Below are positions 13,978-45,480 of a stretch of 64,000 bases of DNA, piece after piece; the first letter of the stretch is position 1; every line of letters begins with the position of its first letter. This DNA is from Closterium sp. NIES-65 (Eukaryota > Streptophyta > Zygnematophyceae > Desmidiales > Closteriaceae): positions 1,806,001 through 1,870,000 of the forward strand of contig CANXME010002644.1 in assembly GCA_948144175.1 (NCBI GenBank). Reading direction: 5' to 3'. The position numbers and the translations under genes were made by a program. The notes below the pieces were generated by a model. The model was not told the origin of the DNA. It ran no database searches and saw only the letters and a list, made by a program, of their open reading frames with translations.

Positions 13978-14424
13978 ATGAGTCGCATAGTAGGTCGCGG
14001 AGGCTCAGATCCTTACTCGAGCGACGTTGAGATGCCGTCGTCTACGAGCCTCCGCTCCTCCTCCTCTCTCTCCTCCACTCCCTCAGCTCCGCTCGCTCAT
14101 TCCCGCTCCGGCGAATACCCCTACGCTCCTCCCCATCCAGCCATCGTGTCATCTCATAACGAGTACGCTGACGACAGCCACTCCGCGTATCATCAAGAGG
14201 GTCAGTTCCACTCGTACACTTCCGGCAGTACAATCGTACCGTACGCTTACCCACCTCCTCCTCCGCCTGAATACCCCTCCGGAATCAACCCAGCAGCGTA
14301 CCCCCCTGTTGTTCCACCTCCAAACCAGCGGGATCCTTCGCAGAAACCGCGTTGGTATAGGAAAGTGCCATGGTTGGCACTTACTGTATTAATCGCCTGC
14401 ATAGTCGTCTTTATTGTGACCATG

Positions 14425-14433
14425 CATCGCGAA
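14425..14433 (+). repeat. Left terminal inverted repeat
   Basis: CATCGCGAA, directly after the TG at 14423-14424. It is the exact reverse complement of 29984-29992. Confidence 0.8.
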
Positions 14434-14707
14434 TTTCTGAGTTTGCACAAAATGTACACGGTAGCTTTTCCTGCGGGAAATCTTCGGAAAAGCTTCGGAA
14501 AACCTTCGGCGCGCACAATTGCACCTGAGTGGCCAAAGTGACATTGCAGCAACGACACTGAAGTGTCGCCAATGCTACTTTGCAGTTACAATTGTGACTT
14601 CGAAGTATCAAGTTCAGCAGTGATCCGGCCATACTCGATTTTGGCTCCATGTTTGGGGCGACACTTTGGGCCATATTGTTATTCATGTCGCAATGCGTTA
14701 ACATCAA

Positions 14708-17700
14708 TCAGTCGATGAGTGCAAACCTATTGAGTAGCCTGACTCTAGGATTAGTAAAGGACTTGCACACATGGACAATGCGCTCGATCGATGCAACCTC
14801 AATGATCCCGTGCGTGGCCTCCTTCCGCCCCGGCACAAGTTGGGGGCAAAGAGTCTGGGGACACACCCCTTCTTCCTCGTAATACTTCACGAATACATAT
14901 GCACCTTCCTCCCCGCTACAGTTCACCGCCCTGAAAATACAGAGACACCGCGCATACCACCACTCCTCCTCCTCCTCCTCCTCCTCCCTCTCTCCCGGTA
15001 TTGCAATGTCGGTGAACCAGTTCTCCTGCGGGCTTGCTTTCACGAACATCGCCTTCGGAACCAAGTAGCCCCCTTTCGTGCTAGGGATGGCCACTGCGGT
15101 GTGCACCTGCCGGGTATGGGTGGGTTAGCATGAGGACTAACACATTGTACGATGACGCCTCTTCACGTACGTGTCCAAGACACAACAGCCCAACCTGTTT
15201 ACAACCGAAGCAATCAGCTGAATTATCGGGTTACTAACATGACTCATCATCTCACCAACACACGTGAAGTCTGAAGGCCTTCCGCGGCCATGAGTGTCGC
15301 CATGTTGTCAAACTCGCTGCCCACCGTCTCCCTGTACAGCATCCGCAGTGGATCGTCAGCCGTCATGAGACACATGGCCTTGCTCGTGCGGGTCAGCGCG
15401 GGTTTCATGCTTCTCACAGCCTGAGAGGTGGGTTGTGAGCACGCATTGGATGAACCGGTGGAGTCATTACACCCTTATCACCTCGCACACCTCCGTGCCT
15501 TTAACAAATGCCACCAACACTACATGGCCGCGCGCTGTGTACCTCTCGCAGGGCGGTGTAGTAAGTTTTCCCTCCTCCTGACAGCGCCGCAATCTCCCTT
15601 GTCATCTCGCGTTGCGTCTCCTCCTCGACTATCCTCCTTGGTATGTCTTTCCAGTTGCTTCCGCGCACGGGCCTCTTCACGGTGCCCTTGTGGGTATGCT
15701 CCCACAGCTCCGTGGAATACTCGTGCGGCAAACCCCTCATGGATATGCCGTCGATGATGTGTACAACTTCGTGTAGCTTCACGAAGTTCCACTTCGACTT
15801 CTGCCTCGGGAAAGCCGCCTGCAGTGCAGCCACCAGTCTACACAAAGTTGTATGCACATTGTAGTGTCATCATTGGAAGATTCACCACAGATGTACAACA
15901 CCGATTATGGGTGCAACGAAACAAGTGGCCATCGTGTTCACTCACGAGATGCCATGCTGCCTCGCGATGGCGATTGTGAGCCGCGTGTGCTTTGTCACAG
16001 CCAGCAGGGACTTGTAGAAGACCGCATAGTAGCGGAAGGCACGAACCTCTTTCTCCCTCTGGTCCCTTTCCTCCGCAGAGCGCCCCACACACAGGTCGGA
16101 AATGACAATAGGGAAAACCTGCATCATGCCACGATACTCGAACGCCGCGTAATTCGCCCCGCTGCGGAAAAACGTGGAGCCACCCGGGATGCGCACCAAG
16201 ACACTCCTTGTCTCGCCCTTCACGCCAAACTTGCGTCTGTACCACGCACAAATCACACACAAGCAACGATATTGGATTGTTTCCGTGGTCAGCTCCGCCA
16301 TGTACGCACTACCGCATACAAAACTGTTCACAGATTCTATGTGTACTCACTGATCAAACCCCCGAATCTCGGCCTTCGACTTCCCCTCCATGAAACAGGT
16401 GGCCATATGCACCAGCACCCCCGAATCCAGCACATGCAATATGTCGCCAACAACTGCCAGGAAGACGTTACCCCACTTCGTCTCCGAGAAGTTCCATCTC
16501 TCCAGGACGCTCTGCACGTTGGATGGTGCTGTCAGACTCATCATAAAACGCAACATCAAGCCGCTACAATCATGGCCGCGGCCATGTGACTTGCCCCACT
16601 GAAACATCGAGCACGCACCGTGATCGGATGCGTAGACCACCTGGCCTGGATCGCTGCAGCGCCTTCCACCGTCGAAGCGCTCAGTATCTTCGACGCCGCG
16701 TGCCGCTCTCCCTTCACCATGCGCACTATTGACTTGTTTGACAGGTCATGAAGGTGCCCTTTCTTGATGTAGCAGCTCGAGCACGGTCTGTGCGATGCCT
16801 GCTGCATCGTTGCTGTGGCACGGCACCCTTCCGGATAGTCGCCAACAAATGCATAGAGGCATGGATATGCCTTGACGACACCTCCCCGGCCGTCTGACAC
16901 ATGGAAGCTTCGAAGCGGACCACTGCATGCACCACTTACACGTTTGAAGGGTCTCAGAAACCGACAATGACCCCGTTCGCCTCGAACAGGCCTAGAGCAT
17001 GCATTCGGACCACTTACTCGCGGTTCTCACGCATGAGCGGACCCATCACGATGCGATACGCCTCCTGATACACCCGAGTCTTCTCCGTCGCCGATGCCCA
17101 CTCCGGCGGAAAAGGGAGCACACCCACTAGCGCATGCCCAGGCTCACGCCACCGTAACTCCTCCGAGACATTGACCAAACCCATCAACATTGGCCATGCC
17201 TGTAGGCGTCCGTTCCCCGACGCGTAAGTGCTGTCGCTGTAGGAGATGACACCCAGCACCATAGAATCCTCCTCCGGCAGTTCCGCCTGCCAACGACACA
17301 AGGCTACCAACAGAGTCAGACTAACTCACATCAGAGTCCATTGTGACGCTTGGCAACATATGCCTCTACTTGCCTGCGCCTCTTCCAGCCAAGTCCCTGT
17401 GTCGGGGGTACTGAAATGTCTTGTTTCAGCCGTGTCTTCTGGATCTCGCCGCGGCCGTTTGACAAATCCCCTAACATTCACGAATGTCTTCACCATCTTC
17501 TGCGCAATCTGTCCACAAGGAGGCGCGTGAAGCCTGTATATAGCCAGTGCATAAACACACATACACTCGCCGACTCCGTGCAGCACCAACCATCAATCGC
17601 TCACCAGCTTTGTGTCCTTGTACAGCAGTTCCAGCATCTGACACCTTCCTCCGGGGCCCCGCACCTCAATCTCTGCCTTGAGCCATGGCACCATGTCGTC

Positions 17701-18186
17701 CGGCGCGTGTTGCTCCCCATACCGCCTGACGTCGGCGACGTTCTGCCAGCGCCGAACCGCTGCTGGATCGTATCCCGGGTGGTTGAATATGTGCAACACT
17801 CTATTTATTTCTCTGTCCGACAAATCAGCGTCCTTGAAGAACAGGTACAGCTCGTTCAAGGTGTTGAACAGATCGCCAACTGTGGATACAGATCCATCGT
17901 CCGACGTCGACACGTACCCGCGTACAAAATCCGAGTGCTCGGGAAACTCTCTTAAATATCTGAACAGCGAGTCCGCGGAGTGGGGGCTGCCCGGGACTGA
18001 CTCACTGTCCGAATGATGCACGCTATTTCTCACCTCGGCCAAAGCCTCCGCCAACGCCTCCACCGCCCTACTCTCGAGCCTCTCGAGCAGCGTTTCCCTG
18101 CACGTGTCATTGCGATACAGATGGATTCTGAGTAGGTTGTCTGACTCCAGCTCCTGCCCGCACGCCCCGCACCTGTTCCCTGCCAT
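14708..18186 (-). CDS. Plavaka/KDZ-type DDE transposase, 866 aa, nine exons
   Basis: Exons on the reverse strand: 17605-18186, 17374-17508, 17018-17286, 16619-16922, 16351-16511, 15946-16236, 15543-15837, 15256-15420, 14708-15106. They total 2,601 nt and stay in frame to the stop. Introns are 87-149 nt and GT-AG, except one GC-AG at 17287-17373. The N-terminus has a C2H2-like finger (CGACGQEL...HLYRNDTC). Then come the Plavaka landmarks: TGTWLEEAQ, the first acid in ISYSDST (about D257), a domain like SVSEELRWREPGHALVGVLP, the Cys-containing HRPCSSCYIKKGHL, the second acid in VVGDILHVLDSGV (about D453), and KLHEVVHIIDG...EYSTELWEH (about E624). Upstream of the finger there is only a short leader, and MAGNRCG is the natural start. 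It should cut and join the ends of the 14425-29992 element. Plavaka-type transposases are known mainly from fungi. Confidence 0.87.
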
Positions 18187-18893
18187 GTGTCTTAATCTGC
18201 GGACACAACCAATGGCCTATCCCTGACTTCCCCTCTAATTCGCGTTAGCTAACCATTACCGTCATGCATGTTCTCCACATCACGCCTGTAGGAGCTATGC
18301 TGTTATCGAGCGGCGCACGCCGTGCATCCTTCCACCGAAACTCCGTTCACCACGTCTCGCGCACCGCATACCGTTCTATTACTCCAGTTACTACTACTGC
18401 ATGTTCTGAACATGGGTCTTCCGCCTACGTCACCCCATTATCACAGCTCCTATAATGGATCGTCCAATACATCGTGTACGCACAAAAGGGCGCAGCGTCC
18501 TGGCGGGCGGCCTTATCCGTAGCGAGAAACCCTAACCGTCAGAAATGCATGCGGTAATACATCCCTTCGTGATGTTTGCACTTCCTTTGTTCAGGCGCGG
18601 TGGTTACACCAACCCGAGAGAATATACTCGATACAGCAACACATCTATCATCAATGTTCGAACCCCGTTTGTCAATTCCGATGGACTATCTCCCATCCTT
18701 GTCATACATAAACGTTGAAATTTTATAACAATTGTTCACACCCCTAGGAAACCTATGCCAATGCATTTAGCAACCTTTGTCACACAGAAACTCAGTGGCA
18801 TACTTAGTATGAAAAACATAAGCGTGCTCAGGGCAGCTAAACGCAGTACCAGTACGGCATGCTTTACTTTCCTGCCATATTGGGGTAAACATA

Positions 18894-19868
18894 TCAGTAA
18901 TAGCTGCCACGGTGGTCACGCCGACTACGACGTCGGCGCAAGAGACGATCAAGTACATCTAACAGGAGCAACGCCCCATCAATATTGTTGGACCTGGTAC
19001 CATCTGCCATAAGGGCACAAAGACAAGTCGTGAGGCAATGTGAAGCATCGGTCACGGCAAATAACAGGACGGTCGTTACCTCTGGGGTCCTCGACGTGCG
19101 TACGCCTCCGCCTCTCGCGGCGCCGCCCATACTCGTGTGTACGTTCATCGGGACATCCTATGGGACATTTGCGCAACGCATAGCAGCGCGAGGTTAATAA
19201 CGTGCAACATGGCTCCCATAAGTGGCACCACGCAGTCAAGCTATTCATGATGTTTGGTACTCACCTGTCTGTGCCCGGACGTGCCTCGTAGGAGTAGCGG
19301 CGCTAGACACGAAACTACCCGGGACCCTGTACGCCGATCCAGACCTGTACGGGTTTGGAGGGTCTGACTCTCCCGTCTCAACGGGCACATTATTGGCGTC
19401 GCCCCTGTTGCCAGGGAAGAAGAAGTCGAAGAGATCATTCACGCGGGTAGAACCTTCGCGAGAATCGGCCGCTGGATCTTCGCGCTCCGCACCCGCGGCT
19501 ATTTCCTCAATCTGCATCCTCTCCCAGCTACTAGGTACCGATTGTGCAGCATCTACATTCCCCCCTGCTGATATCGTGGCCTGTTCGTGGTTCACAGGTC
19601 CTGTAATTGACTGCGTAGCCCCCGCGTCTCCATCCTCCGTTTCATCATCAGTTGAGTCTACCACCGGCTGTCGGCCATTACCAGTTTGTGGCTCGGGTGT
19701 TACAGTCACAATGACGGTTTTATCTCGACTTATGTCGGCACCCGCGTTTATATCACCACTCGCTGGCGTTCCCTGCATACGCGTTCCATCTCGATCAAAG
19801 CTACCACCCAGTAGCTTGTTTATGTGACGCGCCGCTACCTTTGTGTCGTTGCTGCTAGGGGAGGCCAT
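18894..19868 (-). CDS. Transposon gene 2: unknown acidic protein with Arg-rich C-terminus, 263 aa
   Basis: Exons 19265-19868, 19080-19157 and 18894-19003 use GT-AG sites and keep phase 1 throughout, giving 264 codons with the stop. The first two thirds are hydrophilic and rich in Ser, Thr, Gly, Asp and Glu. A short aromatic patch (LFDFFFPGN) may be a binding motif. The C-terminus has two Arg clusters (GRRRERRRRTH and LLRRRRSRRDH), which could be nuclear localisation or nucleic-acid contacts. I do not recognise a family. It starts about 0.7 kb beyond the transposase start, in the same orientation. A companion of the transposase is only a guess from position. Confidence 0.65.
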
Positions 19869-20236
19869 AACTGGAATATGGTTAGGGTTTGAACGAATAG
19901 CCAGACAGAGCTAAATGACTCCTTGTATCTGCCTCCTATTTGTTCGAAGCCACTTCGGTAACCATTTCCGTCAGCGATATCGCCGTCAAAATCTCGTCGT
20001 TTGACGTTGTACATTCGTCGTTGTACACCCGATTGATTTACGGTGTGTGTTAGACGACATCTACAACGAAGCTCGATACCGTGAACGGCCATGAAAACTC
20101 TGGAGGTTTAATGTTTACATGATACATAAAATCTCAACCGCGCTACATATGCAAGTATTTAACCATTTCGACGGCACAGTCTGATCCCGTTCCGTATCAA
20201 ACTATGCCAATACGCCGATATGTCAAACGGTCCTGT

Positions 20237-21212
20237 CTACCGGTTGGCGTTATACTTTACTAGGCGAACGTAGGCACAATCAATAGTATTCGATGAGGTG
20301 CCCGTCATGGACTGTTCTTGCATGGGCTTAGTAGATACCTTGGACCACCAAGGTATCATTCCCAGAGCACGACTGAGATCCCCGATGCGCACTCCTTCGT
20401 CCATGTCCTTCAACACCTTGGGCGTGTTCACCTGAAACGTGCTTCATCTGGGTTTAGCGGAGGATATGCAGGCACCACACCACACACCGTCCTTTGTAAT
20501 GGCATTAACGGAACAACGTATACGTCTTACAATGGATGATGTGCCACATCCCGTGCATATGTCTCTTGAGTGAGGTGCCGAAATCCTGGACCCATCGGAC
20601 CGATGTCTCTCCTCCTGCACACCAGATAAACGTCCCACACCTTTCATGGCCATCTGAAACACACCCAGTCGGCACGCCAACGATCCTCACCTCATATCCC
20701 ATCGCCCGTGCCTCGGCCATTAGAACGTCTCTGTAGTCAAATGTCGGCAACTCCAGCAGTATGACATCCTCGAGGCGTGTTGCGCTGTGATTTACGAGTC
20801 TGTAATCCGCTATTGACGTCATAAACCGGCGACCTTTGGCACGTGTAATGCTCGACTCCGACTCGTCCGGATACGTGGCGTATATGAGCCTCAGGTACAT
20901 GAACGGTGTGGGTGCGTCGGGTGTTATTGCAAGAGACGCACGGGCTTCTGAAATCGCGCGCGCCCTGTGCTGTCTAGGACTGCGCCTTCCACTACCCAGG
21001 AATGGGTCCAGAGACCTAAGAATCGTGGCCGCGCTAAGGGTCTGACCTCGTTGCGACATTATGGCACCCTGCACCTGCATTATGGCGTAGGCTATAGTGG
21101 GCTTAGACCGTATAAAATAACCCCGTGTGTTGCGCCGACGAGGCTCCAGCACGTCGCGCGCTTTACTACACGTCGCGCTCATCATGCCACTGCCAACTGA
21201 AATCTGTACCAT
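20237..21212 (-). CDS. Transposon gene 3: unknown protein, 279 aa
   Basis: My model has exons 20691-21212, 20531-20653 and 20237-20431, with introns GTGAGG...TTTCAG and GTAAGA...TTTCAG, all in frame. The first exon encodes a likely folded region (about residues 40-170) with RLEDVILLELPTFDYRDVL. The middle exon has CTGCGTSS. If the second intron is retained, the frame continues to WCGAC, giving a GATA-like C-x2-C...C-x2-C pattern before a stop at 20444. Alternative splicing could therefore make a zinc-finger form. I do not recognise the family. The ATG at 21212 is the first in frame and needs transcript support. Confidence 0.55.
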
Positions 21213-21542
21213 TAGTCGGACGTTAGGGTTTTGTAAGTGTCCGTCTTACGGAAATCGAGGTACGTGCTGGTGGGACGATTGGAAGCGGTGTGGAATGGTT
21301 TGTGGATTGTTGGCACGCTTTCATGGTCAACAGGGTATACCGAGTACAAAGTGCAAAATTACTTCGCGCGTTCTTCAGTATGTGCCATATCGGGGAGGTG
21401 AACATTGTACTCGCTCTCGGATTGAGCGTGGAATGTGTAATATCCCCAACGTGAACAATCTCGTTACGTACACGATGACTGACAATGTGCGTATTATTCG
21501 ACAAATACAACGTTTATTGTGATCAACAAGGCTCGTCAGTTA

Positions 21543-22888
21543 CTACATCCCATACTCAATATCCCCATGCACGCTAGACATGGATGCCGTTGGGGAGTTG
21601 AAGCATATCTCCTCGCTGGCCGTGGAAGACAGGGACGAGGAAGGCGCGTATGAATGCCTCCTAACCTTCTTCTCTGGTGTGCGCAGCAGACGGTCAACGA
21701 GGTCCGGGTTCCCCAAGCGCTTAAGCGTGACGACAGCACTCGGAGCTACTCCAGTCGCGCTAGCAAGCCTTGTGTACGCATCAGATGCCATACGCATGAA
21801 CCGGCGGCGAGTCCTGTCGTCCCATTTGACGCGGCCGACACAGCTTGAATCATCAATCCGACGGTTGACCGGCTCTGGAAAACGTTCGGCCGTATCCTCG
21901 TCCATGGTGTCATCCCAAGTTGCATAGTCCAATGCATCCATCACGCAGTCGGGGATGTCCAACTGGTCCAGCCTCCTCTGCAGGCCCGTGAGGCTAACGA
22001 CGAGCTGCTCCACAACCTCTACATGCATGTCGCGGTTGATCGCCTGAAGCCGAGGCAGCCACTCGTCCGGGACGCACCCAGTGCGCCAAAACGCGAGCTG
22101 AATGTGAGATGTCGCCACCCCCCACAGTGCCTGGAATGTCCACTGCAACGTGTTCGTGGCTGATGGAAAGTTGCTGGTCCACACCCAAGCTGGAGGCACG
22201 CGCCTCATGAAGCGAGTCTGGTGGTCCACCCACATTGTGCGGAATTCGGACTTGAAGAATGTGACAATGCCCTGCACGACCGGGTTCCCCACGTCTGGCA
22301 CAACATCATGAAGCTGCACAATGCGAGTATGGGTTAGGTGTTGCACCATGAAGGGCCCACTCGGCTCTCGCTTGCCCTCTCCCCAAGTGAGATTGTGCCT
22401 CCGCGAGGACACAAGGACGACGATGTCACGGTCCTCTGCAAATTTCGCAGCGTTGAGGCCTAGCATGAACTGCGTGAAAAGCTGCACGTAACAACAAAGA
22501 GCATCACAGGGACATACTTTTAGCACCACCGTATTGAGTCCATACATAGGAGACAATCGCACCAGTCATCTCTAGTACAAATGGCCATTACCTGGGGGGT
22601 TATGCGGCCGGACCGAGTACGGCGTACATATGCCCACTGATCGCCGCTGACATCGTGGCCCAGCCTCAGTGGCTCCCGGTCGGCGCTCACAACAACGGGC
22701 CTGAAGCGATGCGCGCCGTCTGCGGAATAGAGAAGGCCGATAGACAGCCTCTTCATATCATTCCCATTGCGACCGACGAACGGATGCAGGTATGGCTGCA
22801 GAGCAGGTAGGAGAGAAACCTCTACAAATATGTACACGTCGCTGGGAGGTGCGCCAAGGCGAGACAAGAGATCCTTTAGAGCGGCCAT
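21543..22888 (-). CDS. Transposon gene 4: DDE_1 (pogo/Tigger-type) protein lacking catalytic acids, 411 aa
   Basis: Exon 1 (22592-22888) and exon 2 (21543-22481) join in phase 0. Residues about 17-180 follow the DDE_1 fold of pogo/Tigger transposases and CENP-B-derived proteins: DVYIFVEVSL for the YNxDETG block, KRLSIGLLYSADGAHRFRP, ITPQLFTQFML, DIVVLVSSRRHN for LLLLDNxxxH, and VPDVGNPVVQGIVTFFKSEFR for the LPPNTTSxxQPLDQGIIxxFK block. At each of the three places where the catalytic Asp belongs there is another residue, so cutting activity is not expected. A helical region with a basic, Ser-rich tail (RTPEKKVRRHS) follows. No CENP-B-type N-terminal DNA-binding domain is seen. It may bind DNA ends or regulate transposition; that is inference. 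The start has a good context (CCATGGCC). Confidence 0.7.
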
Positions 22889-23806
22889 GGAAGCATGGTG
22901 GCGTATGCGACAAATGAGGGCATATGATATAACCAGTAGGATTGGCGAGTACAGCGTCCAATGTACCTGCTATTTGACAATGAGTGAGTCTAGCGTGAGA
23001 AAAAAGTCGGGCGAAAGCTGGCCACTCCCTCTTTGCCCTGACAGGCGTGCATTGGCCACAGAAGCTACTGATTGCGCACTGACGTGGGTACACCTCATAG
23101 GCTACCACGGTTGTGCACTCTTTAAACCACATGTTTGTGTTTTGAAAGCTAATCTGTTAGTGACATATCCGTACCCCGTACAGTACATGCCCGGGTCAGT
23201 TAGTGTTCCGAGATAGTGTGCGCATGAATGCGTACGTCCGTACATTGTTACACTGCATGGTATAGTTATACTGTTTATGAACTATCTCGCCGCATCGCCC
23301 TGAACATCAATATACATCATATAATTTGGATGCTGCACTGGTCGTCGATTCGTTCAGTGTTCGACAATAAATCAATGGTTTAACTGAAACGAAGCCGAAA
23401 TATACCCATCCGCGTCAAGGTGGGAGGCCGAAATGTTACGTCGATGTTAATCGCATTTGGTTTTGTTCATAACGGGACATTAGTCGTCCCGATAATGGGT
23501 GCACAATTGACTTTATAAAGGTTTCGACTAGTATCGCCGGTGCATGCTGACGAGGGTACAGTAATCTCGACTCACATGCACTGTCACAAGTGTCAAATAG
23601 GGCTGGAAACCGCTGCCAATCACGAAGCGCCATGGTGGTATCCACTTTCTTCAATCTCATCGGTCCCTGAGTCTCCGTCGTCCGAGCAAATCATATGTTT
23701 ATCCCCGAAGATGCGTGGTGGAGTGTATAAACGCAACAATCGCACTACAAGCCCGACAGTTTAGTTCTTGCAACGCTAGGGTTTCGGCGTTCCTCATGAA
23801 CTCGCC
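22889..23806. promoter_or_regulatory. Divergent intergenic region between the leftward and rightward transposon genes
   Basis: This 918-bp stretch separates genes 1-4 from genes 5-6 and should contain promoters for both directions. A TATA-like TATAAAC lies at about 23726, some 80 bp before the rightward start codon. For the leftward gene 4, TATATCATA occurs about 50 bp upstream. No reading frame of interest is seen. Confidence 0.5.
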
Positions 23807-26274
23807 ATGGTTCCGCGAACCAAAGCCCAGGCCTCTAAACGAGGCCTCCATAGTCCACAAGCCATGACATCGCGTAGGCCACCGGCAGGGGCGCGGCGGG
23901 AGAACACCACGATCCCAGAATCGATGAGCAAAAAGCGGCTGCGTTCGCGTGAACTCCAGCAGGGGGATACGAATACCGAGGCCGCAGTGGCCGCGTCGGT
24001 TTCGGCTTGGGGCTCGCGGCTGCCATGCGTCAAAGATGAGCCCGCGCCGAATGACGCGCTGACTGCTCTACTGAACGCACCATCTTCAACGACCTTTAAG
24101 ACGGTGTCGCTGTATAACCACATGGGTGTGGGCTGTCAAGTGACTGCGCATGACGCATTGACGCTCGCCGACAAGGAATATCTGGGGGACGCGGTCGTCG
24201 ATTTTCATAACATGTACGTTTTTTGGATGGCGATACTTCTGTAGGTTGCTGTGTCGCCACTAAGGGTATGCCGACTTTAACGTATAAAAATTTATCGTGC
24301 GTTATCCATTCGCACCCGTGCAGCCTCCTGAACATCAGGTACCCAAGGTGTCCGAACGGGAAATCATGGGTGGTCTTTGACAGCAAGGCGTATGCGTATG
24401 CCAAGCTTCACAAAAAGCCGATTGGGAGGTGCACGGGCCCGTCTGTGTTCGAGTACGATTACATCGCGGTCCCGGTATATGCCGGGTAAGTACGTCTTTT
24501 GCAAGCCGCTGTTTTAAGCTCGTCTGTCGCCCCAACCTAACAAAGGCACCTCAAATGTGCAGGAAACACTACTCTTTGATGGTGGTAACCAACCCGAGCG
24601 GGATTGTTAGCCAGACGGCCGCACCTGTGGAGTTAATTCTGTTCGACAGTGACGGCCTCCACGCCAAGACTACTGATGCCTTTGACGGGACTAAAGCGTG
24701 AGACTCGCTATATATCACCGTGCAACCCCCTTTCAGCGGTGACGTCGTCCGACCTCATCTGACCTGTTGGCTATATCGTCGTGCAGGTTATTGCACCTCA
24801 TGTGCAAACGCGATCATCCGGAGGTGGACCAGGAGGCGTCTAGGCAAGCGCTCATCAAGGCAGAAACGATTATCATGGAGGTGAGATGCTGCAAAGACAT
24901 TAGGGCTCCTCTATCCCACTTGCTTTCTAATACGGGAGCGCGTTCTGATGAACGGAAACATGGTGTCTCGATGGTGCGCAGGGTCACCAGATCCCGAAAC
25001 AACCAAACAGCTGGGACTGCGGAGTGTACATTTGCCAGTATCTCGAAGCACTGGTGACATCTGGGTTCATAACCGTGCGAGAGTACATATCTTTCAAGGG
25101 GGTGAGCGCGGAGAGGTACCGCCACAAGATGCGTGGGGATCTTTGTTCACATGCCGAGGGAACGCTGATTCCCGAGCTGCAGCGCCAGGGTCTCCGCATA
25201 CCTCTGCAGCCTGTTCCCGTTATCGACGACAATGGATACATCTGCGTCGACCCTCCCGTGGACATCCGAAGAGAGCTGCTAGTCCACAAGGAGAAGTTCG
25301 CTGTGATTGAGCACGACATACAAGTTCTGACGGCCAAGATCGAGTATCTGGCCATCCGCAAAGGCGTGACGTCGGACGAGCTGGACGCAGGGGCGCGCCA
25401 ACACCTTGGTGCCGTGGTCGACACGCTGGTAGAGTCGGCGACTCCACGCAAGCACGCTAAAGCAGACCCTACCGCGGACAGCAGTGGCCCAATGGAAGTC
25501 GCGCAGACTCCACAGAAGCGTGCACTGGCGGCAGTCCCATCAATCTCTCCCTGTCATGCACCTCACACACCTGCCGTGAAAGATAGCCAAGTTACTGCCG
25601 GAGACGCGACACCTGCTGTGGTCAGGCAACAACAGCGCGACCAGCTTGCAGTGGCTTTGCGCAGTCGCGCTAAGACTCCCATGCCCGCAGCTCCAGGTAA
25701 CCCCGGGCGGGTCGCAAGCAGCGGCCGGGTGGGAGTTATGTGGAACGCAGAGAAGCAGAGGTACTACGTCCGGATCATATCTGCTCGCCGTCAGCAGGTT
25801 CGTCTGGGGTCGTACGAGGACAAGGACGAGGCGTCATACGCGTATGCTGCGGGAGCCGTTGTACTTCGCCCGAACTCACGCATCAGCTGCACGGTTGAGC
25901 TGTCCGACTGTGACAGGCAGGCTTTAGCCGGTTGCACAGAGGAGATCCTAAGGCTACTCGTGAAGTACAGGCGCTGGAACAGATGGAGGGAGTGGCGGAC
26001 AGCAATGGCTGGCCTGGACGACGCGCGGGCGGTCGAGACCCGTTCGCGGCGAAAGGGCAGAGCGTCCCGGGCCAGTAGTGACGTTGAGGAGGTGCAGGCG
26101 ATCACGCCGACGACACAGGACCAGCCTATGGCTGAAGAGCCAGAGGACGGAACAGAGTGTTACACGGATGACGACGAGTCCGTGGACGATGATGCTGAGT
26201 ATGAACCGGGATCCGATACTTTCGGCGAAGATGATGGATGGGAGGATGTGAACTGTGCAGATGGTGTTGCATGA
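23807..26274 (+). CDS. Transposon gene 5: Ulp1/C48 peptidase fused to an AP2-like domain, 696 aa
   Basis: Exons 23807-24213, 24324-24485, 24563-24697, 24787-24880 and 24982-26274 use GT-AG sites and total 697 codons in frame. After a basic N-terminus with KKRLRSREL comes a Ulp1-like cysteine-peptidase domain (about 115-310): YLGDAVVDFHN, then His192 in GKHYSLMVV, Asp218 in LILFDSD, Gln273 in IPKQPNSW and Cys279 in DCGVYICQYL. The catalytic set is complete, so removal of SUMO or a similar modifier is plausible. Residues about 512-565 (GVMWNAEKQRYYVRI, VRLGSYEDKDEASYAYAAGA) match an AP2/ERF-like DNA-binding domain. The tail is strongly acidic. The start has a perfect Kozak-like GCCATGG. Ulp1 genes have been captured by other plant transposons such as Kaonashi MULEs; I know of no Ulp1-AP2 fusion. 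Confidence 0.85.
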
Positions 26275-26770
26275 AGCACTAAACAGGGTGGGCATTGGAC
26301 CCGGGGTTGTACTAGTTGTTTGCTCAAACTGATAGGACTTAGACCTTGTGGCGGGTAGCCGAATCTGGAAATGTAAGCATCGCAGCGACCACGTTTTTGA
26401 AGTGTCTATATCCAGGAGATGTAAATATATGACAAAGAACGCTTAACCCATGCTCATCTTGAAACTGTAACAACGGTTGGGGGTAGTAGCAAATGCGGGT
26501 GTATAATTGGAGTATCGCATCTGACATAAACGTGGACGAGCATCGACGATGTGACAAACCTGGCACGGCGACATGTGACATGTGGAAAGTGTGGCTGACA
26601 ATTGTCTGTAATCAAACTGGCCACTCTAACCGTGACATGTGTAGAATTGTGCGCGTGGCAAACTCCGTTATCGAGCATTGCGATGTACAAGAGAGTGGTA
26701 AGGGGACTGTTGCGAGCGAGGGTAGAACCCCGGGGTGGTTTAGAGCTACGTCATTTCCAACCCGCTGTGT

Positions 26771-28851
26771 ATGCGGTCTGAGATGCTGTCTCCGCTAGAG
26801 GTCGATATGACTCCCACCGACGGCGGTCGTTCCAAGCGGCCGAAGACTGCGCCGTCATGGTTAGCTGATTCATATGAATACGGGGAGCGGAAGAAGAAAG
26901 GACGACCCCTAGCGGAAACCAAGAGGCGTAAAACAAGCACAGGAAAATGTGGCGCGGCGGATAAGAACGCGGGGCATGACGAAGGTAACATTTGTGACGT
27001 GACAAGTGCGTTGCATTTCATGTATCAGTGCTAATGCTTGTCTGTGGTGATATATGCCGTATGCACACGCAATCTACACACCCTTCTACCTACCACGCAA
27101 CTGGTCACAGAGACTCGAGAAGTGCCGCTGCAGATAGGCAGCGCCAACGCTGTCGGGGTCGTCGACGCGGAGGCAGCATGCACGCCCATTGTCGCCAACG
27201 CACCGCAAGGGGAGGAGGACACGGAGGCCGTGAAGGAACGCCTGATAGACGAGTTAATGGAAGGCGAAGATGAGGACGACGAGGATGGAAACGCTGGTGG
27301 TCAATCGTCAAGCAACGATCCGTGTGGCGAGAACGGATCAGAGGAGGAGCAGGCCACAAAAGCGCCACAATCGAGGAAGCGGATAGATGCAGCCGATGGC
27401 CAAGTCACACGCGTGGAATTTGATGCGTTGCGCGATTCCCAGAATGATACCGCGAAGACACTGGCTCGTCTTGAGTCACACGTACTGACCATCATCCGCC
27501 TTGGCGAACAGCGTAAGCGCAAGCGGGCGTCCACAACTGCCGCAGCGTCGCTTGGCCGAGAAGCTTTGAAGCGGAAACGCCAGTCAGATGATGACGAAGA
27601 ATCAACGTGCGATGAGGACGAATTGGCGGCGAAGGTGGCACGGCACGCGCGTCACGACAAGTCGCCAGTGCTCCAAACCGCCCTTGACATCCTTCCAGCG
27701 GAGAAGGCTTGGAAGGTGAGGCCTCGCATAGAGTGTTCTGCTCACGTCGAGGCACAGTTGTTGGATACACTACATATCTCGTCACCGTTTCCCCCCCCCC
27801 CGTACAACTACTTTCAATGTCGCAGGGTGTTTGCGACATGGTTAAGGATTATCTGTTTGTAGAAGCCCCGAACGAGAAGATGGATTTCTACCCGAGTCGC
27901 AACGCCAAAAACGCGGGCCTATGCCATGTCGTGTCCACCATTTCTCCCAAAACTGCGACTCTGGCGTTAGACGCTGATAAGGCTCGACGGCAGGATCTGA
28001 ACAAGACCTTGTCCGAGTACAAAACAGGGTTGGCTGGACGCGCTCGCGGAGTTTTTCTTCCACGGATTGGTCTTTTCCGTGACGACGAGGACAGGGCCAG
28101 TCCTTGGGCACGTAAGACAGAGCGCACTGGGGAGCGTGCCCGAAAGAGATATTGCGTCCCCGTCCCAGACGATGGTGCGTGTTCGCTTGTCATATGGCCG
28201 CAGCGATTATGGCCGCAACTCCTGTTTCGTGCCATAGTGGACCAGACATGTCTTTGAACCCTCCCCTTTTCCTGTACGCGGTATCGTTGTACCCCTTTTG
28301 CATTCCATGTGCGCAGGGGACCCGACCTTGTGCAAGTGGCACATCAGCAAGGATGGACTGCCATTTGCATCCGGAGCGTTCGCGGCATGTGCCATCGCGG
28401 CTTTCGGAGGGAAGCGGAAGGACAAAGAAACAACTATAAAGCTGTACCACCTGTCGTGGCTCGAGCACATTGTACGTATACACCGATGTGAACATATGGT
28501 GTAGCCATTTTTTTTCAACTCGCCGTTGTAAATGGGCTTCTCCTGCGGTCGCAGATCACGGACGCCATTGTCAACTGGGAGAAGCGCAAGGGGAAACTGC
28601 ACAACTCTCCGTGCGAGAATGGCGCTTCTGTGCGGAGGATTCAGAAGCTGGCATTCGATGCCATTGCGGATGCAGTATGCCGAAATGAAGTGCCCTACGA
28701 CGAGGAGAAGAAGTCGTGGAAGTGGGGCAGGCATGGGCTCCGCCTTTCATCTTGCGGCCTGGAATGCCTCCTGGAAGATGAAGCAGCCTACGAAGACGAA
28801 AATCATGATTCCTCCGCGTCGGAGGCATCGGATAGTGAAACAGATGGTTGA
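26771..28851 (+). CDS. Transposon gene 6: unknown nuclear-type protein, 539 aa, five exons
   Basis: Exons 26771-26984, 27111-27715, 27826-28174, 28317-28471 and 28555-28851 have GT-AG borders and give 540 codons with no phase error. The N-terminus has basic clusters (SKRPKT, ERKKKGRP, KRRKTS) fit for nuclear import. A Glu/Asp-rich stretch follows, then a probable coiled coil (FDALRDSQNDTAKTLARLES) ending in RKRKR, and a second acidic run. Residues about 275-510 look folded (MVKDYLFVEAP, WHISKDGLPFASGAFAACA, LSWLEHI, WEKRKGKLHNSPC). The extreme C-terminus is acidic and Ser-rich. Met5 and Met13 are alternative starts. I do not recognise a family. It follows gene 5 by about 0.5 kb on the same strand. 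Confidence 0.65.
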
Positions 28852-29983
28852 CATCCTGATTGTGTGTTTATTCCAATTGTGTGTCGTAGACTAGTGTAGT
28901 GGTTTAGTGGGAGAGGTTGTGGTTGTTGTTGGTTCTATGCATTTGTGCAGTAAATCGGTCACACATACGTTCGATATTGCACACCTAGCGGAGACCTTGC
29001 GCATGTTGGACACGAGGACGGTTGAAACGAAACTCGCAGCATTCCGCGCAGTACGGCGACAAATGCGCCGCAAATCGCGGCGACAAATGCGGCGCTAATC
29101 GCGGCGACAAATGCGGCGCTAATCGCGGCGACAAATGCGGCGGGGTAAAATGGAGCCGTTAGATGTGAAGCTATTCTAGAGACGTGGATATAGGGCAACC
29201 GTACAATCTGCCGAACCGCTCATCAAAGAACCGCGGCTTCTTTGTTTGCCCGACGACTGTGTGTAATGGCTATTTGCCACGTGTGTGATGGATATGGTCA
29301 CACGTGTGTTATCGTGGGATCTGCGACAATTGCGTGTCAGCGTGCGATTGGTATCAGTAGTCCTAGTTGGAAGACCCTATCACCGATCGTACGGCGTGTG
29401 ATGGTACAAGTGGATTCCTCTACAAATCGTGGGATGACATTTGTATCGGACGGACGGTAGATATGAGGCGTATGGGCGTGAGATCTGGAGGTTGACGGCG
29501 TATCCGGTGCGGCCATGTGCCGTGCTGCGGTTGGCATGGCGGAGTTGGCAAGCGACAATCGCGTGCGTACAACTGTGGCCATCTCGACCGTACATGCGGC
29601 ACGATACAATTCGTTATGGTTTGGCATCCACCTGTCATAAAGCGTGAGTACACGTGCAAATATTATGCTGACGTGGAATAGTGACTTCATGTATGCTAAT
29701 CGGCAGCTATGTGGCAACACACAGGTGTAACCGTAGAGTGTCCGCATGGTGACGCAAATGTCACTGGCAGCTACATGACGTAGTAGCGACCCATATGACG
29801 CCGTGCGGGTAGCGGCCATGTTGCCGGAAACGTTGCCTAAAAGCTGCGGGAAAGTTGCGGGGAAACCACTTTCCCTGTAACCCTGACCCAGAAGCCTTTG
29901 ACCTAGACTTTTTTTTTGCGAAACAAGAGTTGCGAAAAAGCAACTTTGAAGCTGCGGAGAAGCAACTTTGTGTGCTTGGTTTT
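28852..29983. other. Right subterminal region of the transposon
   Basis: There is no gene. It holds the 24-bp tandem repeat at 29054-29149, sequence rich in VNTR-like CGTGTG and GTTGC motifs, a poly-T run at 29910, and repeated GCAACTTTG near the end. The left end (14434-14707) is much shorter and has the repeated CTTCGGAAAA motif at 14474-14508. Confidence 0.6.
29054..29149. repeat. 24-bp tandem repeat, four copies
   Basis: The unit CGGCGACAAATGCGGCGCTA plus ATCG occurs at 29054, 29078, 29102 and 29126; the first and last copies are slightly changed. It lies about 0.85 kb inside the right end of the transposon. Such subterminal repeats often bind transposase, but this is unproven here. Confidence 0.85.
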
Positions 29984-29992
29984 TTCGCGATG
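29984..29992 (-). repeat. Right terminal inverted repeat
   Basis: TTCGCGATG, followed by TG at 29993-29994. Just inside are repeated GCAACTTTG and GTTGC motifs (29828-29972), possible subterminal transposase sites, including the short hairpin AGTTGCGAAAAAGCAACT. Confidence 0.8.
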
Positions 29993-30116
29993 TGGCGGTG
30001 AATGATTGCCCGTCGAAGCCGCACCCGCAAGGCCAGAGCTGCGTGCTGCCTTGGTTGGGTCGATTCTCCTTCGAGCCGCTCAATATCAACCCTCTCTTCG
30101 GACCAACCGCCTTAAC

Positions 30117-44639: not shown

Positions 44640-45480
44640 TCGGGCAGCTCGGCAGCACTGCAGCTCGGCAACACGGCGGCTCGGGCGACTCGGGTGGCTC
44701 GGGCGGCTCGAGCGGCTCGGGCGGCTCGGGCGGCTCAGGCGGCTCCTGCGGAACGGGCGGCTCGGGCGGAACGGGCGGCTCGGGTTGCTTAGCTGTGCAG
44801 GCGGCTCGGCTGCATGGGGCGGCAGGGCCGCAGGTAGGGCGGCTGGGCCGCAGGTAAGGGGGCGGGGCCGCAGCGAAGGGCGGCTGGGCCGCAGGTAGGA
44901 CGTCGGGGCCGCAGGTAAGGTGGCGGGGCCACAGCAGCAGGCGACAGGGCCGCAGGTAAGGTGGCGGGGCCGCAGCTAAGGGCAGAGGGGCCGCAGGTCA
45001 AGCGGCGGGGCCGCAAGTAAGGTGGCGGGGCCACAGCAGTAGGCGACGGGGCCGCAGGTAAGGTGGCGGGGCCACAGCAAAGGGCGGCGGGGCCGCAGGT
45101 AAAGGGCGGCGGGGCCGCAGGTACGATGGTGGGGCCGCGGGTAAGGTGGCGGGGCCTCAGCAGCAGGTGACGGGGCCGCAGCAGTAGGTGGCGGGGCCGC
45201 ATGTAAGGTGGCGCGACGGGGCCGCAGGGCGGCTGATCGGGGCCGGGAAAGGCCGGCGCGAGGGCCGCGAGGGGGTAGGCGACGGGGCCGCGAGGCGGCA
45301 GATCGGGGCCGGGAAGGGCGGCACCGGGGCCGTAGGGCTAGGCGACGGGGCCGCTAGGGCGACGGGGCCGCTAAGGCGACAGGGCCGCTAGGGCGATGGG
45401 GCCGCTAGGGCGACGGGGCCGCTAGGGCGACGGGGCCGCTAAGGCGACGGGGCCGGGCCGCGAGGGCAGCGCGACGCAGC
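44640..45480. repeat. GC-rich minisatellite in the reverse copia leader
   Basis: It is the inverse of the leader repeats at 35190-35930: GGGGCCGCAGGTAAGGTGGC-type units and GGCTCGGGCGG units. Confidence 0.82.

Follow-up and report, generated by a model that had tools for sequence, protein, structure and literature searches.

We describe a stretch of 64,000 nucleotides from the zygnematophyte alga Closterium sp. NIES-65 (contig CANXME010002644.1, positions 1,806,001 to 1,870,000; hereafter the window), in which a six-gene element interrupting a rhomboid gene is very probably a complete, recently active and autonomous-looking cut-and-paste transposon of the Plavaka type. Its parts are given below in window coordinates, each with the evidence on which it rests, dN/dS being the ratio of non-synonymous to synonymous substitution rates.

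14425..29992, no strand: whole element, Plavaka-type DNA transposon, 15,568 bp (recurring borders; eight collinear copies)
14423..14424, no strand: left target-site duplication TG (single TG in the empty paralogue)
14425..14433, plus strand: left terminal inverted repeat CATCGCGAA (ends read; most sister copies have CATCGCGAAA)
14708..18186, minus strand: gene A, predicted Plavaka transposase, 866 amino acids, 9 exons, one GC-AG intron (PF18759, alignment A2, dN/dS 0.18)
18864..19868, minus strand: gene B, 229 amino acids, 3 exons of which the last is uncertain, no assigned family (37 genome matches, dN/dS 0.48)
20505..21212, minus strand: gene C, 235 amino acids, 1 exon, no assigned family (64 genome matches, dN/dS 0.44)
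21543..22888, minus strand: gene D, DDE_1-related, 411 amino acids, 2 exons, catalytic residues apparently lost (DDE_1, relatives, dN/dS 0.37)
23864..26274, plus strand: gene E, predicted protease of the Ulp1 type (C48) carrying an AP2-like domain, 677 amino acids, 5 exons (C48, AP2 in relatives, dN/dS 0.26)
26771..28851, plus strand: gene F, 539 amino acids, 5 exons, no assigned family (at least 129 genome matches, dN/dS 0.35)
29984..29992, minus strand: right terminal inverted repeat TTCGCGATG (ends read; sister copies)
29993..29994, no strand: right target-site duplication TG (single TG in the empty paralogue)

The borders were examined by searching the genome (874 Mb in 2400 contigs) for the two ends of the element. 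The left border at 14425 was reached by 37 of the best 40 of 77 matches to a 201-bp left-end query (window included), and the right border at 29992 by 34 of the best 40 of 70 matches to a 210-bp right-end query. Comparison of 20 left and 20 right flanks showed that similarity ends at the element borders and that the flanks differ between copies, the exceptions being C2400, which lacks the first 4 bases, and C2080, which lacks the last 7; common flanks were seen where one insertion stands on two or three contigs. The 9-bp inverted ends might be due to chance if taken on their own, but the borders recur across copies. An earlier, sequence-only reading of the window had claimed 9-bp inverted ends at exact borders and a TG on both flanks, and had proposed a genome search for more copies; the ends and the two TG dinucleotides are as it described, and the search returned many copies with recurring borders and a few truncated ones.

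The target-site duplication was likewise followed across the genome. Identical 2-bp flanks were found in 13 of the 16 contigs tabulated with both ends (window included), against a chance expectation of about 1 in 16, and the 13 represent 12 independent insertions, C2178 and C2292 holding one insertion that is counted twice. The flanks are TG, TC, TG, CT, TG, CT (the one insertion on two contigs), AC, TA, AT, TG, TT and GG; since the two duplicated bases vary between copies, no strict target sequence is seen. Among the contigs with non-matching flanks, C2080 is truncated and C615 has its ends about 200 kb apart, which do not form a pair. The ends on C532, C287, C2187 and C1759 stand 25 to 64 kb apart and were counted from the ends alone. 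A short element of 1.84 kb on C1244, of which the ends alone were read, has the same ends and TC/TC flanks, as would be expected of a derivative moved in trans. Near the right end of the window copy there is also a short tandem repeat (29054-29142, in 12-bp steps with a 24-bp unit), at which the alignments of C2080 and C1651 break.

The site of insertion lies in a rhomboid gene, whose interrupted exon was delimited as follows.

13978..14424, plus strand: rhomboid gene, part of the first exon on the left side of the insertion, with a predicted start codon (rhomboid homologues)
29993..30116, plus strand: rhomboid gene, remainder of the same exon, donor site inferred (empty paralogue)

The joined flanks of the window element match the uninterrupted stretch C2346:1760503-1760771 with 93% identity and a single TG at the junction. 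This stretch is a rhomboid paralogue 60 kb upstream and not an allele. The rhomboid gene is present in duplicate on one contig, as the upstream copy, uninterrupted at the insertion site, and as the copy at 14281-30116 of the window. The sequence-only reading had noted that removal of the element with one TG restores the rhomboid frame VTMAVNDCP, and VTMAVN(D/N)CP does exist in the uninterrupted paralogue. A second empty site was found for the copy on C343, the joined flanks of which match C1721:1507495-1507772 with 98% identity over 278 of 280 bases; this site looks allelic or homeologous. The check for empty sites, suggested for sister strains, was made within this genome, which has a paralogous site for the window insertion and a 98% identical one for C343. 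Several contig pairs have common flanks or common match patterns (C343/C1721, C2292/C2178, C1801/C2199, C2165/C388, C1512/C1789, C1732/C995 and C1780/C874), the pattern expected of haplotypes or recent duplicates, and such pairs are useful for finding polymorphic insertions.

Eight other copies were read whole, and all are collinear with the window copy and about 90-97% identical to it per block; three measure 15.5-15.9 kb and five reach 17.3-22.9 kb through internal insertions. Among the nine copies, all six frames run through the mapped exons free of stops and frameshifts in the window and C1673 only, and gene D of C1673 is interrupted by a 5.9-kb insert; of the nine, the window copy alone is thus uninterrupted as well as fully open. 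The gene models were obtained with a simple predictor trained partly on the window copy and corrected by hand with homologues. Completeness of the element, claimed beforehand, agrees with the eight collinear copies and the recurring borders. The accompanying claim that six genes keep frame over 3-9 exons stands as to the open frames and falls short as to the exons, which number 9, 3, 1, 2, 5 and 5 for genes A to F, so that the range fits four of the six.

The predicted product of gene A, in a near-final model of 852 amino acids, matches PF18759 with an E-value of 4.5e-21 and 75.9 bits (cut-off 26.3) over positions 14-321 of 325. When it was aligned with the fungal protein P0034 (alignment A2), the second D, the C-x2-C, the H-x3-H and the E were invariant; the first D, judged by eye, stands in the block SYSDST/ISSDKT. 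By homology, gene A is a Plavaka-type transposase that retains its D, D and E together with C-x2-C and H-x3-H; the sequence-only reading had named no family. A protein search that scored the best 7999 candidates by common words gave 34 proteins matching gene A (E-value <= 0.001), 33 of them from Closterium, a zygnematophyte, and the remaining one from the fungus Dendrothele bispora, with 23% identity. The streptophyte host assumed in the sequence-only reading is thereby borne out. The alignment of transposase homologues (A4) holds 29 rows; about six of the 34 homologues, P0005-P0008 and P0010 among them, were left out, and the fungal row was kept. A Tnp2-type profile was not among the Pfam matches of gene A listed at E-values up to 10, HMMER filters permitting, and a Ribosomal_S19e match at the end of the transposase was set aside as below its cut-off. 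The structure of a transposase relative was predicted with low confidence (mean predicted local distance difference test, pLDDT, of 50.8). The element is one branch of the Plavaka population of the genome, which is very large, with 1059 candidates for one exon of gene A, of which the best 150 were scored. Further exons of Plavaka-type transposases, at 67-71% identity, appear repeatedly on single contigs: C1915 has them at 45243, 65625, 85999, 103858 and 145091, in 18-41 kb steps on one strand, and repeated exons also occur on C660, C1032, C563, C306 and C1103. These repeated exons correspond to clusters or arrays of another lineage.

Gene E is, from its sequence match, a protease of the Ulp1/C48 type (E-value 7e-10, 39.5 bits against a cut-off of 20.7). 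The window protein alone gave no Pfam match to AP2 in its C-terminal part. Nine relatives of gene E were fetched for alignment A3, with two that carry a stop codon (L085 and L086) left out, and AP2 was matched in 4 of the 8 members of the alignment (best 3e-5); the A3 profile matched WRI1, which has two AP2 copies, at 1.1e-5 over the whole chain and 0.0021 over the better stretch, and TEM1 at 4.3e-4. It is through these relatives and the profile that the C-terminal part of gene E resembles AP2. For genes B, C and F no significant family was found in Pfam, nor did PHROGs return anything significant for these three, or NCBIfam for C and F.

Gene D reaches 16.2 bits against DDE_1, where the cut-off is 22 (E-value 0.008), and four Closterium relatives of it exceed that cut-off with 24.5-34.6 bits. 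It is 91% identical along its length to the NIES-64 protein P0155. In the public Closterium annotation the four relatives above the cut-off (P0015, P0018, P0021 and P0027) join Plavaka and DDE_1 in one chain, probably because adjacent transposon genes were run together in gene prediction. The second-aspartate block of alignment A1 reads, by eye, VLVSSRRH, FTYNTAH, LVYDPKH or LTIHEAH, none of them the usual motif; the block is not kept acidic, and the catalytic residues of gene D seem to have been lost. That gene D might still be an active nuclease, with catalytic residues at other positions, is unlikely: the four relatives above the cut-off would favor it, and these variants, compared by eye with the usual motif, speak against it. 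The predicted structure of gene D has low confidence (mean pLDDT of 40.8), and profile searches of the PDB with alignments A1 and A4 gave nothing credible.

Selection on the six genes was estimated against a relative on C388 that is 75-85% identical per block and in which all six genes align, D without its first 33 residues and E without most of its length; the estimate leaves aside stop-containing codons and badly aligned ends. The dN/dS ratios were 0.18 for A, 0.48 for B, 0.44 for C, 0.37 for D, 0.26 for E (on 146 of its 677 codons) and 0.35 for F, with bootstrap upper bounds from 0.23 to 0.71 across the six. Exons are 85% identical between the window and C388, and introns and intergenic DNA 73%. 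These sequence comparisons show purifying selection on all six genes.

The association of the genes was then followed in much more divergent elements of the genome. At identities below about 60%, 58 of 80 D loci, 33 of 44 E loci and 49 of 81 F loci lie within 15 kb of a transposase match, where uniform placement would give 0.2 to 0.4 loci; within 20 kb, F stands downstream of E on the same strand in all 35 pairs, and E and D are divergent in 24 of 25. The lists behind these counts were compiled by hand, without matches at or above 60% identity and without any second fragment from one locus; the rows used were 80 of 127 for D, 44 of 129 for E, 81 of 129 for F and, for the transposase, the best 150 of 1059 candidates, which makes the transposase list a lower bound. 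The order in the divergent lineage (e.g., on C501) is F, E, then transposase and D, and that in the window is F, E, then D, C, B and transposase; C1512, C1789 and C2165 have matches to all six genes. Simple patterns and shared 11-mers did not reveal the ends of the C501 lineage within 5.3 kb of flank. Genes D, E and F thus stay linked to Plavaka transposases well beyond the close copies of the window element.

These counts bear on the possibility that a smaller Plavaka element was invaded by other mobile elements or host genes, the six genes being passengers. Internal insertions are indeed common in sister copies, and B and C have fewer genome matches, counted as exon pieces (37 and 64), than D (at least 127), E and F (at least 129 each). 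We nevertheless consider this scenario improbable, given that the eight whole copies are all collinear, that all six genes are under purifying selection and that D, E and F are linked to transposases even at about 30% identity; for these three genes it is largely refuted by the linkage counts.

The sequence-only reading had further suggested that the element was recently active, and the changes private to the window copy support this. The private changes of each of the nine copies were classed and tested against a neutral expectation. The window copy has 287 of them, and its coding changes comprise 52 synonymous and 53 non-synonymous, against 25.9 and 79.1 expected, an omega-like ratio of 0.33 (p 3.4e-8), with coding sites changing 0.43 times as fast as non-coding ones. 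Seven sister copies, with 38 to 160 private changes, have omega-like ratios of 0.60-2.06, none of them individually significant; pooled, they show 110 synonymous and 275 non-synonymous changes against 117.9 and 267.1 expected, an omega-like ratio of 1.10, and the window differs from them with a Fisher p of 1e-4. Near-neutral evolution of the sister copies left an initial scan for selection among close copies with little power. The tree of the copies is unrooted, and C1651, its longest and most distant branch, was taken as outermost. The window copy is nested in it as the sister of C1006 (support 1.0, terminal branch 0.024), and its private changes therefore belong to its own branch. We take this to mean that for most of the window branch the lineage was mobile and under selection, and that the insertion came late.

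Such a signal, strong in the private changes of the window and absent from the seven pooled sisters, could also arise if the window copy were a domesticated gene cluster serving the host. This is very improbable, as the copy interrupts a rhomboid exon with intact ends and a duplication, and its family has moved. Least probable of all, and close to negligible in our estimate, is an endogenous virus or a virus-transposon hybrid, for although size, gene number and a Ulp1-type protease recall Maverick-like elements, the element has short terminal repeats and a 2-bp duplication, Pfam scans and a PHROGs scan (with pieces of four proteins) gave no capsid, polymerase or packaging family, and the one viral contig locus found with part of the transposase matches it over 22 residues, the other element genes having no significant match there.

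Several observations weigh against a complete and recently active transposon. The element is known from its DNA, and not from transposition, transcript or protein. The open frames of the window copy are not fully independent of the training of the predictor, which favors this copy; the last exon of gene B is weakly supported, and the structure predictions for gene D and for the transposase relative are both of low confidence. One end pair, C1780b, has the unequal flanks TA/CA. Many of the linked loci are near-identical to each other and do not count as independent. The copy on C1651 also has more synonymous private changes than expected (0.52, p 1.4e-6), in a set that cannot be polarised because this copy is the outermost one and the stem of the others falls within its private changes. 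Finally, no near-identical donor was found among the best-scored matches, and the nearest of the eight whole copies differs by 2.8%; at this distance, the donor is not among the copies examined.

For a transposon of this kind, the mechanism of gene A is well supported by homology, and the roles of D and E are proposals made by analogy. The gene A transposase would recognise the ends, excise the element with its DDE centre and insert it at a 2-bp staggered cut, and it could move short copies in trans. With less certainty, gene E may bring a SUMO-type protease to the element or to target DNA via its AP2-like domain, where it would oppose silencing or control the transposase; gene D may descend from a DDE_1 transposase and have been retained as a partner without catalytic activity. 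Genes B, C and F would be required or helpful parts. A bolder proposal, which we advance tentatively as one that may well prove wrong, is that Closterium Plavaka elements evolved a multi-protein transposition apparatus whose fixed parts include a second transposase without catalytic activity (D), a SUMO protease directed to DNA (E) and, as an obligate partner, F, kept together through deep divergence. If this were true, a DNA transposon of eukaryotes would possess subunits devoted to evading silencing and to regulation, and the sister group of land plants would provide a natural case of an AP2 DNA-binding domain carried by a mobile element.

The Zygnematophyceae are the algal class sister to land plants, and from this class the element supplies precisely placed ends, sites without the insertion, a copy that seems intact and a set of genes that is conserved. 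It becomes possible to test if mobility, or escape from silencing, requires a pseudo-transposase and a SUMO protease with an AP2-like domain, and the element bears on the travel of AP2 domains between mobile and host genes.

Plavaka elements have been described mainly from fungi. As given in the accessible part of one account, they are defined by their transposase, in which C(2)C and H(3-4)H lie between the second D and the last E (PMC12730594), and PlavakaB by the termini CATCA..TGATG and a 2- or 3-bp target duplication (Kojima 2025, PMC12730594). On sequence grounds, the Closterium element appears to be Plavaka-type and PlavakaB-like: the transposase features tested are present, and the exact PlavakaB terminus differs. 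As far as that part of the account describes them, it has in common with the fungal PlavakaB elements a Plavaka transposase bearing the C(2)C and H(3-4)H motifs, termini starting with CATC and a 2-bp duplication (PMC12730594), and differs from them in its termini, CATCG..CGATG instead of CATCA..TGATG, with 4 of 5 bases in agreement. It further differs from PlavakaB in its Ulp1 gene with an AP2-like domain, its DDE_1-like gene, its three unassigned genes and its zygnematophyte host. The TET/JBP family, which according to the same source is carried by only some PlavakaB elements, was not among the Pfam matches of the six Closterium proteins. The same part of the account gives CAC..GTG termini with a 3-bp duplication for EnSpm/CACTA and an 8-bp duplication for Zisupton (KDZ) (PMC12730594); the CATCG..CGATG termini and 2-bp duplication do not fit the first, nor does a duplication of 2 and not 8 bp fit the second. 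In the accessible main text of the Closterium genome-size paper, CACTA and EnSpm are absent (PMC10407611). The literature searched, which consisted of titles and abstract openings with subscription papers mostly outside, held no description of the element or of its gene set, and no account of Plavaka in streptophyte algae; the earlier claim that such elements are undescribed in streptophyte algae holds as far as this search reaches.

Auxenochlorella, unlike Closterium, is a chlorophyte. EnSpm-Plavaka elements are reported from this green alga, with no gene set given for them, in the accessible part of one source (PMC12633428), and on that reading they share with ours the character of a Plavaka-type cut-and-paste element in the green lineage. 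Grapevine CACTA elements with a ULP1 domain carry a Tnp2 transposase, according to the part of the source consulted (PMC2528002); like these plant elements, as far as described there, the Closterium element is a CMC-related transposon carrying a Ulp1-type protease, and unlike them it has a Plavaka transposase, a 2-bp duplication and a protease with an AP2-like domain. The giant Plavaka repeats of Amoebidium are presented, in the portion available, as tandem clusters of intron-poor genes, many of them for tyrosine recombinases (PMC11244446). The kind of element found in Closterium is known, and its gene set is new as far as we searched; unlike the Amoebidium repeats, it has introns in five of its six genes and a fixed gene order.

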